A DNA stretch of 64,000 nt from NCBI GenBank assembly GCA_016932505.1, contig JAFGCT010000006.1, positions 30,932 to 94,931 of the forward strand, given 5' to 3'. This DNA comes from Candidatus Peregrinibacteria bacterium (GTDB lineage: Bacteria; Patescibacteriota; Gracilibacteria; UM-FILTER-43-11). The translations under genes and the position numbers were made by a program. Position 1 is the first letter of the stretch. Each line of letters opens with the position of its first letter. Below are positions 10,141-35,432 of this stretch, in pieces. The notes beneath the pieces were generated by a model, which saw only the letters and a list, made by a program, of their open reading frames with translations, had not been told where the DNA came from and did no database searches.

Positions 10141-10188
10141 AACAAATGGGGGAGCCAATGGGTGAGCAAATTGAGGAGCAAATTGTGC

Positions 10189-10272
10189 AATCGGCTCATC
10201 AATCGGCTCATCAATCGGCTCATCAATCGGCTCATCAATCGGCTCATCAATCGGCTCATCAATCGGCTCATC
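10189..10272 (+). repeat. 12-bp tandem repeat (AATCGGCTCATC) x7, ending 3 bp before the pabA ATG
   Basis: Seven identical units read directly. Confidence 0.98.
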
Positions 10273-10275
10273 AAT

Positions 10276-10854
10276 ATGAAGACATTAATAATAGACAACT
10301 ACGATTCCTTCACCTATATTCTAAAACAATATTTTGGCGAGCTTGGTGGTAATCCAATTGTCTTCCAGAATGACAAAATCACAATCAGTCAGATTAAAAA
10401 ATTAAAACCAACTCACATCGTGTTATCACCTGGTCCGGGAACTGTTAGTGAGCCAAAGGATGTCGGAGTTATGTTTGATGTAATTTTGGAATTTTATAAA
10501 AAGACCCCAATACTTGGAGTATGCTTGGGGCATCAGGCAATCTGTAATTTTTTTGGCGGAAAAATAGTTCGTGCACCGAAAATTATGCACGGAAAACGTT
10601 CGTCAATTTATCATCTCAATCGCGGAATTTTTAAGGGGATACACAACCCGCTTGAAGCAATGCGATATCACTCGCTAATCGTGAACACGCCATTTTGGAT
10701 GAATAAGGAAGTGGATATAGTGGCTCATACATCAGATTTTTTAATAATGGGTGTTCAGCATCAAAAATATCCTGTTTTCGGTCTTCAATTTCATCCGGAA
10801 AGTCTGGGAACAAGAAATGGAAAGAAAATAATTAAGAATTTTTTACAATATTGA
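10276..10854 (+). CDS. pabA: aminodeoxychorismate/anthranilate synthase glutamine amidotransferase subunit
   Basis: MKTLIIDNYDSFTY, LSPGPGTVSEPKD, GVCLGHQAI, LQFHPES; followed by pabB. Confidence 0.88.
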   Translation: MKTLIIDNYDSFTYILKQYFGELGGNPIVFQNDKITISQIKKLKPTHIVLSPGPGTVSEPKDVGVMFDVILEFYKKTPILGVCLGHQAICNFFGGKIVRAPKIMHGKRSSIYHLNRGIFKGIHNPLEAMRYHSLIVNTPFWMNKEVDIVAHTSDFLIMGVQHQKYPVFGLQFHPESLGTRNGKKIIKNFLQY

Positions 10855-25581: not shown

Positions 25582-25610
25582 TTGACAATTATTAATATGA
25601 ATAGTAAACT
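25582..25610 (+). promoter_or_regulatory. promoter TTGACA-17-TAAACT
   Basis: Upstream of the structured leader of the first small-protein gene. Confidence 0.6.
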
Positions 25611-25694
25611 CGCACTCTATCATTTTAGAATATAGTGTACTTTGTTAGTAATACTATATTCTTGATACAAATTATGTCATCTTGTTTTCAATTA

Positions 25695-25744
25695 TATCAC
25701 TGCACTTTCGCAGTGTTATAAATACCTCCGATATGGAGGAGATA
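25695..25744 (+). promoter_or_regulatory. structured leader motif, copy 1
   Basis: TATCACTGC-ACTTTC-GCAGTGTTATAAATACCTCC-GATAT-GGAGGAGA; two hairpins, the second pairs CCTCC with GGAGG. Confidence 0.8.
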
Positions 25745-25755
25745 TGGAGATCACT

Positions 25756-25905
25756 ATGAGTGGAAAAAAAGAAGAGACTGGAAGAGGCCATACGTACTTA
25801 ATAAGAGGCGCAACCCCTGATCCACAAACTGCGATGGAGCAAAATATCAGGAATATGACGCCACCGAAAGACCGGCCGGAAAACCAGCCACAAAAACGTC
25901 GTTGA
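25756..25905 (+). CDS. novel small protein (49 aa, MSGKKEETGRGHTYLIRGATPDPQ...)
   Basis: ORF with SD, leader motif and terminator. Confidence 0.6.
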   Translation: MSGKKEETGRGHTYLIRGATPDPQTAMEQNIRNMTPPKDRPENQPQKRR

Positions 25906-25943
25906 TCTCAGAACAAGCCTCTAGTTAGAGGCAGGAAGACATG

Positions 25944-25978
25944 GAGGGGTGGGTCGAAAGGCCCACCACCTCGTTTTT
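25944..25978 (+). terminator. intrinsic terminator
   Basis: GAGGGGTGGG...CCCACCACCTC stem then GTTTTT. Confidence 0.88.
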
Positions 25979-26132
25979 AATAAATTTTTATGTTTGTACC
26001 TTTTAATATTTACCCTTATATATTTTAAAAGAAGAATTAATTGACTAAATAAGTCAAAATGTAGTAATTTATAAACTCTTATTTTCGGTATGCGGTATTT
26101 AAATATGTCCGTATTCCGGATGAGAAAAACAA

Positions 26133-26183
26133 TATCACTGCAAATTCGCAGTGTTATTTATACCTCCAGTGGAGGAGAAGGAG
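26133..26183 (+). promoter_or_regulatory. structured leader motif, copy 2
   Basis: TATCACTGC-AAATTC-GCAGTGTTATTTATACCTCC-AGT-GGAGGAGA, near-identical to 25695-25744. Confidence 0.8.
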
Positions 26184-26188
26184 TTGTT

Positions 26189-26380
26189 ATGTTTTTACCA
26201 GGTGAAAGACCAGGAAGACTGATGCAGTGCCTGATGGCAGGTGGAATGCCTACTGAAGAAGAACGACACAGGGCAAGAAAGCAGGAAGAAAGGGATTCTC
26301 AAAACTGGTATCGCGGGCGAGAAAGCGACGATGAGCGGCGAGAGCGCGAAGAAAGACAAGGCGTTCGACGGAGAAGATAG
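26189..26380 (+). CDS. novel small charged protein (63 aa, MFLPGERPGRLMQCLMAGGMPTEEER...)
   Basis: SD AAGGAG; leader motif; start inside the longer track ORF 26090..26380. Confidence 0.6.
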   Translation: MFLPGERPGRLMQCLMAGGMPTEEERHRARKQEERDSQNWYRGRESDDERREREERQGVRRRR

Positions 26381-26442
26381 GCAATTCTAGTGGTCAGGTA
26401 ATGGAGGTTTATGGGGCGGGCTCTGCGGAGACCGCCCTCCAT

Positions 26443-27293: not shown

Positions 27294-27551
27294 ATGGGAA
27301 ATAAATTATATGTAGGAAATCTTTCTTACAAATTAACTGACGAGGCTCTTAAAGAAGCTTTTGCTCAGGCTGGTACAGTTGAAGAAGCTGTGATTATTAC
27401 AGACAGAATGTCTGGAAGATCTAAAGGATTTGGTTTTATTACTATGTCTACCGGTGAAGAAGCTCAGGCTGCTATAGAAATGTGGCACGAAAAAGAGCTT
27501 GATGGTCGTAAGCTAATCGTTAACGAAGCTCGTCCACCAAGAGAGAGATAA
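27294..27551 (+). CDS. RRM-type RNA-binding protein
   Basis: KLYVGNLSYKLTDEALKEAF (RNP2), SKGFGFITM (RNP1). Confidence 0.95.
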   Translation: MGNKLYVGNLSYKLTDEALKEAFAQAGTVEEAVIITDRMSGRSKGFGFITMSTGEEAQAAIEMWHEKELDGRKLIVNEARPPRER

Positions 27552-28167: not shown

Positions 28168-28215
28168 AGACCTAGTGGGAGTCCTTGTAGGAGACCTGAT
28201 CGGTATCCTATAGGT

Positions 28216-28293
28216 CACCAACTAGGTCACCAACAAGAACCCCAATTAGTTCACCAACTAGGTCACCAACAAGAACCCCAATTAGTTCACCAA
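28216..28293 (+). repeat. 36-bp tandem repeat x2 plus partial third unit
   Basis: CACCAACTAGGTCACCAACAAGAACCCCAATTAGTT at 28216-28251 and 28252-28287. Confidence 0.97.
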
Positions 28294-28301
28294 TTAAAAT
28301 T

Positions 28302-32903: not shown

Positions 32904-35432
32904 ATGCGGAAGTATATGTTGTTTTTTCTGGCCACCCTCTTCGTTTTTGGATGCAGTAAAATGCAAGTTGATTATTGCGACGAGCCAGAAGACTGTACGG
33001 ATGAGTGCCAAGGGTACGAAAACGCGACGTGCAGTTCAACCGGCGCTTGTGTTTGCAACAACCCGATACCCCAAATCGTTGAGCCTTTCTGCGAGGACGC
33101 AAGCGATTGTCCTTGCTCCAATGGAACAGCCTCATGCAACGATGGTATCTGTGGCTGTGAAACTGAGGTCGAGGTTGAAGTGCCTGTTGAAACCGAACAG
33201 TGCAACGACACCAACCCCTGCGAACAGATTCCGGATTTCGAAGTCGAATGTTCTTTCAATCAATGTCTCTACACTCGTACAGAAACCGAAACAGTAGAGA
33301 TACCAGTCAAAACCGAACAATGCAACGACACCAACCCCTGCGAACAGATTCCAGGTTTTGAGGTTGAATGTTCTTTCAATCAATGTCTCTACACTCGTAC
33401 AGAAACCGAAACAGTCGAGATACCAGTCGAAGCAGAACAGTGCAACGACACCAACCCCTGCGAACAGATTCCGGATTTCGAAGTCGAATGTTCTTTTAAC
33501 CAGTGCCTGTATACCAGAACTGTCGAAACCGAGGTCGAAGTACCCGTCGAAACCATTCAATGCAATGACACCAAGCTCTGCGAAGAAATCGAGGGCTTCA
33601 CGGTCGAGTGTACATTTAACAAGTGTTTCTACACTCGAACAATCTACGAAGAAGCTGTCGATTCTACCATCACCATCAGGGTTGAAACGGACGATCAATA
33701 CGGCAACCCTGTAAACGGCACAATCTTGTTGAACGGGACTGTCATTGGGCAAAGCGAAGTCGAGCTGACGTTTGATTCGTCGGATGAAAATAGCTTGGCT
33801 TTCGATAATTTGCCGGGTTATGCACCGCCGGCATCAGTCCAACTTTCGGACGCTTTCCAGGAGGGTGAACGCTACAAAGCGACTTACACCCGTGATGGAG
33901 CAGTTGCAAACGTGTGCGTTACCCCGAAGAGTGAGGAGGGCCTGTACCTGCCGGATGCGACGATAAGTGTAAATGGAATAGAACTGCCATCTGGGCAGAA
34001 TTCCTGTTACACCGTCAACATAGAGGTGGATAACGAGATAGTCGGAGGTGGAATACAAAACCTGTATACTACCCCCATCTTCATCCCGAAAGACACACTT
34101 GCCGAAGGTGAGACATACAACTACGAACTCCTGTATATGGCGGAATATGTTTACATCTATTTGTTCTCATTGCCAGTACAGGGCGAAATTTTTCGAAATG
34201 GGATATCGGTGGGTCATCCTCAAGATAACCTACTTTATATTCCTATTTCCAAAGAAGGAGGTACAACGTTTTCGTTTGGTGATGTAGAAGGCTATACAAC
34301 GCCGGAAGACATCATCGTGTACGGTGCAGATTACGATTACGAAGATTCTACCACATTCACTTTTTACAGCATCTACGACAGCCAGGTTAACTCGCTCGTC
34401 TGCATTGAAAATGACAACGGCAATACGCTGTTCACGATTAATGAGGACGACCGGGAATACAACGGCGAATGGAATCGTCCAACTTGTGTTGCACTCAATA
34501 CCAGTGAAACGCACACACTGCATTTTCAAGACAGGCAGAACTATCAACCTACAACGGATAGCTTATTCATCAGCCAAGACAGCCACGTTGGTTGTACCGG
34601 TGAATTCGTTCCCGGCGGACAGTTGAACTGCATCGTGAATTACGAGTATGTTCAACAGGTTGAAGATCGGACACATTTTATAGTCCGAATAGACTTCACC
34701 GCTCCGCTTTTGGGATCGGAAGACTATCCCATATCAGGAAGATATGAGGAAGGAGGACTAATTCACGAGAATTCCTATGTTTGGAAATCGCTCGAGTTGA
34801 GCGAGGATATGGACATTACGTTCTTGTCCATAGGGTATCTCCAGCCAAGCATTCAGTCGTTCCACGTGAACTCTTCCGAGTTATCGGTCGACGATGAGGC
34901 TTATGAACCCAGCGAAAATACCTGGATTTACAAAGTAGAGTATGTGGCGCCTCAAGACGCCATTGAAACCTGTGTGTCTTCATTCAACCAGAATGGGGTA
35001 AACGTTTCATCGGAAACATACGTGCGGTTCGATGGCTTTGACGATTTGAACCAATATGAAGAAGACCAGGACTGCCACTGGTTATCTCCCACCGAATCAC
35101 ATGAGATCGTGCCGGCATGGCTCACCGGTTATTACAAGATGGTCGATGTCATCCACATCCCTGCCGGGCAATTGGTTGACTACAACCAATTCAACTTCAC
35201 CTATGTTCCCGAGTCCACGAACTATCAAATTTGTGTCGGGAATATAACAGTTGACTCACCGTTAGAGGTTAACGGAAACTCGCTCGGGTTTACCGGCCTC
35301 AGTTACAAGTGTATTGCTATCGATAAAACGCAAGACAACGAAATATCGATTGGCAATGCCACCCGTAGCTTCCCTGCAAACAGTGTTCCTCCAGGCGAAA
35401 CATCTGCTTTCGTCGATTTCTCCGATTTCTAA
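32904..35432 (+). CDS. large secreted Cys-rich lipoprotein with tandem repeats
   Basis: Signal peptide with FVFGC; four 40-aa repeats; SD GAAGGAGG. Confidence 0.8.
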   Translation: MRKYMLFFLATLFVFGCSKMQVDYCDEPEDCTDECQGYENATCSSTGACVCNNPIPQIVEPFCEDASDCPCSNGTASCNDGICGCETEVEVEVPVETEQCNDTNPCEQIPDFEVECSFNQCLYTRTETETVEIPVKTEQCNDTNPCEQIPGFEVECSFNQCLYTRTETETVEIPVEAEQCNDTNPCEQIPDFEVECSFNQCLYTRTVETEVEVPVETIQCNDTKLCEEIEGFTVECTFNKCFYTRTIYEEAVDSTITIRVETDDQYGNPVNGTILLNGTVIGQSEVELTFDSSDENSLAFDNLPGYAPPASVQLSDAFQEGERYKATYTRDGAVANVCVTPKSEEGLYLPDATISVNGIELPSGQNSCYTVNIEVDNEIVGGGIQNLYTTPIFIPKDTLAEGETYNYELLYMAEYVYIYLFSLPVQGEIFRNGISVGHPQDNLLYIPISKEGGTTFSFGDVEGYTTPEDIIVYGADYDYEDSTTFTFYSIYDSQVNSLVCIENDNGNTLFTINEDDREYNGEWNRPTCVALNTSETHTLHFQDRQNYQPTTDSLFISQDSHVGCTGEFVPGGQLNCIVNYEYVQQVEDRTHFIVRIDFTAPLLGSEDYPISGRYEEGGLIHENSYVWKSLELSEDMDITFLSIGYLQPSIQSFHVNSSELSVDDEAYEPSENTWIYKVEYVAPQDAIETCVSSFNQNGVNVSSETYVRFDGFDDLNQYEEDQDCHWLSPTESHEIVPAWLTGYYKMVDVIHIPAGQLVDYNQFNFTYVPESTNYQICVGNITVDSPLEVNGNSLGFTGLSYKCIAIDKTQDNEISIGNATRSFPANSVPPGETSAFVDFSDF
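33183..33662 (+). repeat. 120-bp in-frame tandem repeats x4
   Basis: Units start at 33183, 33303, 33423, 33543. Confidence 0.95.

Follow-up and report, generated by a model that had tools for sequence, protein, structure and literature searches.

The DNA analysed here, a stretch of 64,000 nt that we call the window, raises a simple question: why should two small and dissimilar ORFs, of 49 and 63 amino acids, each follow the same short structured leader? The window belongs to a genome of 1.35 Mb in 39 contigs (G000), and genomes of 0.6-2.1 Mb throughout its class suggest a reduced-genome lineage. As the first-pass annotation had noticed, the two leaders (25693-25743 and 26131-26179, forward strand) are nearly identical. 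They share a direct repeat (25694-25729 and 26132-26167) with a 36-nt core, in which 32 of 36 bases are identical (89%), at a spacing of 438 nt, and both cores continue with a loop, of 5 nt in leader 1 and 3 nt in leader 2, followed by GGAGGAGA. The MFE folds of both leaders reproduce the pairing described earlier, CACTGC with GCAGTG and then CCTCC with GGAGG, so that the SD-like stretch is paired. According to fold and alignment, the first hairpin, H3, reads TATA.CACTGC-ACTTTC-GCAGTG.TATA in leader 1 (25693-25720; arms at 25698-25703 and 25710-25715) and AATA.CACTGC-AAATTC-GCAGTG.TATT in leader 2 (26131-26158; arms at 26136-26141 and 26148-26153). The second hairpin, H4, is CCTCC-GATAT-GGAGG followed by AGAT in leader 1 (25725-25743; arms at 25725-25729 and 25735-25739) and CCTCC-AGT-GGAGG followed by AGAA in leader 2 (26163-26179; arms at 26163-26167 and 26171-26175). 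The MFEs of leaders 1 and 2 are -19.9 and -17.4 kcal/mol (z -3.4 and -2.8), values reached by 1 and 2 of 200 shuffles, respectively, and the wider 5′UTRs give folding z scores of -5.8 for gene 1 and -4.9 for gene 2.

Upstream of leader 1, a sigma70-like promoter, TTGACA-17-TAAACT (25582-25610, forward strand), matches 10 of 12 positions and is a candidate only, the number of such sites in the region being at chance level. Each transcript carries a further hairpin upstream of its leader: AGAATATAGT/ACTATATTCT, of 10 bp, in transcript 1 (25627-25662) and, in the fold of transcript 2, CGGTATGCGG..CCGTATTCCG (26086-26118). A strong intrinsic terminator, GGTGGGTCGAAAGGCCCACC and then the T run ACCTCGTTTTT, follows gene 1 as had been claimed (25938-25975), and gene 2 is followed by a weaker GC-rich hairpin (26404-26442, z -1.8) that faces the convergent msrA. 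The twin locus is not conserved: in relatives, the adjacent genes (SdpI-like or MsrA) come without the leader.

ORF 1 (25756-25905, forward strand; MSGKKEETGRGHTY..., 49 aa, pI 10.1) and ORF 2 (26189-26380, forward strand; MFLPGERPGRLMQ..., 63 aa, pI 10.0, Arg/Glu-rich) are GC-rich in a window of 36.5% GC, and their products are basic, hydrophilic and look disordered. Neither has relatives in 147 genomes, viral contigs, Pfam, NCBIfam or PHROGs, weak database matches not being accepted as such. The earlier remark that the two proteins share little sequence holds, since 1013 of 3000 shuffles reach their alignment score, and we reject homology between them. Judged by their sequence, both ORFs are likely coding. 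Of the original claim of two small-protein genes, the SD-spaced ATG in each and a codon usage that modestly favours the proposed frames (z 2.2 for ORF 1 and 2.0 for ORF 2) make it plausible, although homologs are missing.

The first-pass annotation had proposed a covariance-model search for further instances, and such searches found both further copies and covariation. A model derived from the twins gave one further clear match in 147 genomes, G000:C22:9301-9350 (37.5 bits, E 7.8e-7). The sequence of this third copy is AATAACACCGCATTTCGCGGATGTTATAACCCCTCCAAAATGGAGGAGAA, and the ORF behind it, MNEKLTPAGQARALADGLAEIAENAAF..., is acidic, of low complexity and cut off by the contig end; the next matches in the same genome are the antisense of the hairpin itself. 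A three-copy model applied to 39 genomes added G007:C74:1272-1324 (31.3 bits, E 4e-5), from another genus of the family. The G007 copy corresponds by synteny to the third copy: each is placed behind the same ion-channel gene (PF07885; the G000 and G007 proteins are 70% identical) and before an acidic ORF. All four copies, at three loci in G000 and one in G007, lie on the coding strand with GGAGG or GAAGG 13-17 nt upstream of the start. Other weak matches, including those in G074 and G008, aligned H3 only, without H4, and were left out of the count; a looser sequence-pattern scan of the genome contigs gave matches at chance level only, and the motif was not found in viral contigs. We rejected a REP/MITE-like repeat, as the element has just three sense copies and an ORF follows each of them directly.

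Tandem repeats of 12 nt also recur in this genome (CAATCGGCTCAT, TAGGTCACCAAC and CAATTAGCCCAT; window positions 10176-10287 and 28211-28294, and about 640-735 of L076), and some of their units look related. A 120-nt unit stands four times in tandem at 33174-33653 of the window (100, 89, 76 and 69% identical to the first). The protein encoded at L078:7195-8379 (minus strand), by inspection similar to epoxyqueuosine reductase (QueG), has a low-complexity insertion of GGSD repeats, built from 12-nt DNA repeats (CCATCCGATCCC-like).

In the alignment of the four leader copies, which was fitted to the structure of the model and thereby favours it, 96.6% of pair cells hold standard pairs and 5 of the 15 pairs are changed on both sides, one of them within the SD hairpin H4. 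The covariation score of 0.311, which rests on four copies, two of them nearly identical, exceeds 500 of 500 shuffles and is at least about three times the score of any slid control. The SD hairpin of G007 is CCTTC/GAAGG, as opposed to CCTCC/GGAGG elsewhere, and it is therefore the pairing, not the sequence, of the SD-like arm that is kept; the arm is base-paired in all four copies. The H3 loops (ACTTTC, AAATTC, ATTTC and ACTTTC) are largely kept, as is GCA..UUCGC around the loop, while the stem below changes. On this comparison, the twins are copies of one modular, predicted structured 5′-leader, H3 followed by H4, right before the start region. Of the suggestion of a duplicated cis-regulatory RNA, the duplicated RNA stands, with its third and fourth copies and its compensatory changes; the regulation itself is what we infer.

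The third copy forms the last part of a structured 5′UTR of about 200 nt, of which the twins carry only H3 and H4. The region that follows the channel gene was compared across 13 relatives. Two features recur in five genomes (G000, G001, G007, G011 and G017): a promoter-like TTGACA, which in G001 is TTGATA, and a conserved element, H1, of the form AUG(U)GAAA ... UUUCCAU-UAUGAUCYUUA, whose closing stem is preserved in 97.1% of cells and shows two double changes. In four of these five, a long, sequence-variable stem H2 (GUUGC.../...GCAAU), two hairpins and GGAG(A) follow, and then an ORF whose product has a short helix-like stretch at its N terminus and a D/E/A/P-rich acidic tail (pI 4.1-4.8). 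Against dinucleotide shuffles, UTR folding reaches z -3.6 to -9.2 in four genomes; G001, which has H1 only and a different ORF, gives z -1.2. In G011 and G017, where the syntenic gene is present, hairpins occupy the corresponding place without the CCTCC/GGAGG sequence. Sought in 291 genomes, H1 was convincing only in the five named above. The candidates in G144 and G097 are ordinary coding-like sequence without a matching UTR, and in the G246 candidate (32 bits) the H1 stem is not preserved.

The UTR comparison identifies the twins as the H3/H4 end-module of the channel-gene type of UTR, placed before other small ORFs. The third and G007 copies are the last domain of the H1-H4 UTR of a channel-linked acidic-protein gene, whereas the twins, like the rest of the window, are without H1 (AUGUGAAA...UUUCCAUUAUGAUC), lack the GUUGC stem H2 and carry other upstream hairpins instead. 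Because the charged small ORFs downstream show no mutual similarity, we infer that copying or retention of the module did not depend on the coding sequence. Channel-gene UTRs with AUGUGAAA...UUUCCAUUAUGAUCYUUA were observed at L225, L226, L227, L234 and L236, mostly before acidic disordered ORFs, and are not in Rfam.

Where contigs show the region, the acidic-protein gene adjoins a convergent 16S rRNA gene. In the family, an (A)AGGAGA- or AGGGAGA-like stretch that could pair with the anti-SD in pre-16S comes after the 16S end. At the 16S 3′ end of G011 (L234:3105-3558, minus strand) the anti-SD is altered: the sequence is GGATTATCTCCTTT, as against ACCTCCTTT in relatives. Mimicry of the 16S rRNA 3′ end (helix 45 and anti-SD) by the leader, an idea prompted by the order of helix, spacer, ACCUCC and GGAGA, was rejected; beyond CCTCC...GGAGA, 20-90% of the shuffles of H3 and spacer align equally well.

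How, then, might the leader act on the ORF behind it? The paired GGAGG sits 16 nt (leader 1) and 13 nt (leader 2) upstream of the ATG, at 25756 and 26189, respectively. Both twins carry a second SD candidate outside H4 at textbook spacing, on which the first-pass annotation was silent: GGAG, 6 nt before the ATG of gene 1 (25746-25749, forward strand), and AGGAG, 5 nt before that of gene 2 (26179-26183, forward strand). Since this second GGAG is better spaced and lies outside H4, the paired GGAGG of the twins need not be the SD in use, and simple on/off masking by H4 remains conjecture. In the longer-leader MFE structure of gene 2, the second SD pairs with AACTCTT at 26074-26080, and in the longer fold of gene 1 it pairs with an upstream ATCTT at about 25679; we take these predicted pairings as a lead only.

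The explanation that we favour, at roughly even confidence, is translational tuning through H4 with H3 as a docking site. The leader would act at the translation step, with H4 either concealing the SD-like sequence from 30S subunits or keeping a regulated standby site beside the second SD. H3 would serve as the docking site: a factor bound there, be it a protein, a small molecule or the 30S, would shift the balance between open and closed H4. The folding energy calculated for H4 is -5.4 to -7.3 kcal/mol, against -9 to -10.7 kcal/mol for SD:anti-SD, the anti-SD being taken from the same-genus genome G001. Because H4 is weaker than this duplex, the 30S could open it, and the leader would be a tuner rather than a tight lock. 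We looked for GGAG-bearing hairpins in the 60 nt upstream of the 42 long CDSs of the window and found none, so that such an arrangement is not typical of genes in this genome. Two observations speak against the favoured reading: with its second GGAG outside H4, each twin may be translated while H4 stays closed, and the hairpins of G011 and G017 do not have CCTCC/GGAGG.

The hairpins could also be a passive element, shielding the 5′ part of short, well-expressed mRNAs against decay and fixing their translation rate while sensing nothing. Structured standby sites alone can set the initiation rate (PMC3936740), and the compact stable hairpins, the purine-rich SD, the strong terminators and the GC-rich ORFs are all consistent with such a role. 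However, while the stems change, the loop of H3 is kept, and so are the order and spacing of H3, H4 and start; this is more than a bare stabiliser would seem to need, and we regard a purely passive element as possible but unlikely.

The conserved H3 loop makes a protein-binding leader possible, and the loop together with H4 might form the aptamer of a riboswitch, or an operator, for a specific ligand. The UUUC/UUC of the loop may pair with the GAGA(AA) purine tract after H4 as a pseudoknot: the loop pyrimidines are complementary to this tract in all four copies (CUUUC/GAAAG in G007), although 3-5 nt of pyrimidine-purine complementarity easily arise by chance. Gene 2 is also followed, 0.9 kb downstream, by a gene for an RRM protein (27294-27551), but this proximity is no evidence of binding. 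The elements are small, the ORFs have no metabolic function and Rfam 15 gives no match for the leader, only two tRNAs reaching the gathering threshold in the window and the sub-threshold matches to the UTRs being far below cutoffs. A riboswitch or operator of this kind seems improbable.

Quite improbable, too, is that the twin transcripts are small non-coding RNAs, their ORFs arising by chance and H3/H4 serving as a 5′ domain. The absence of relatives of the twin ORFs, the 5-11% of same-composition shuffles that keep an ORF open and a codon z of only about 2 would all fit this reading. Against it stand the SD-spaced ATG directly after each leader and the acidic frames of like build (72-179 aa) found in the expected frame at the third copy and in three syntenic relatives, which would be unexpected for a non-coding RNA.

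The fourU and ROSE RNA thermometers place a short hairpin with weak pairs or bulges over an SD-like sequence. The leader has in common with them an SD-like stretch paired within a short hairpin, but its CCTCC/GGAGG stem is perfect, G+C-rich and without weak pairs or bulges, the energy model keeps the H4 arm of every copy 90% or more paired between 10 and 60 °C, no heat-shock gene follows and the best Rfam thermometer match is far below cutoff and in other sequence; the thermosensor suggested earlier, in which heat would open H4, was thus not borne out and is scarcely credible.

Structured leaders that cover an SD-like sequence are a familiar principle. As in SD-sequestering leaders and standby sites (the preQ1 translational riboswitch, PMC9410914; PMC3936740), a hairpin pairs an SD-like sequence near the start and the neighbouring structure is conserved. 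The present leader differs from these in its lack of an Rfam match, in the second SD outside the hairpin (two of four copies) and in the unrelated small ORFs that it precedes; compared with preQ1-type leaders, it has no known ligand and its pseudoknot is putative. An open literature search found no description of such a leader, and the motif is a new, so far family-restricted example of the principle. Taken at the level of sequence and predicted fold, the leader is a real, uncatalogued structured RNA that probably tunes translation.

The UTRs described here are better conserved than the proteins and can therefore be used as gene flags for otherwise unannotated disordered small-protein genes. 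If active, the leader would offer a compact and well-defined means of translational control, and its three copies in one genome and one divergent relative would provide a ready comparison. Finally, and only tentatively, for we think it rather unlikely, the family-restricted H3/H4 cassette, with a loop that would bind a factor, might mark several disordered small proteins, unrelated or evolving fast, that are controlled together, the cassette being read by one trans-acting factor; if true, a reduced-genome bacterial lineage would possess a post-transcriptional regulon.
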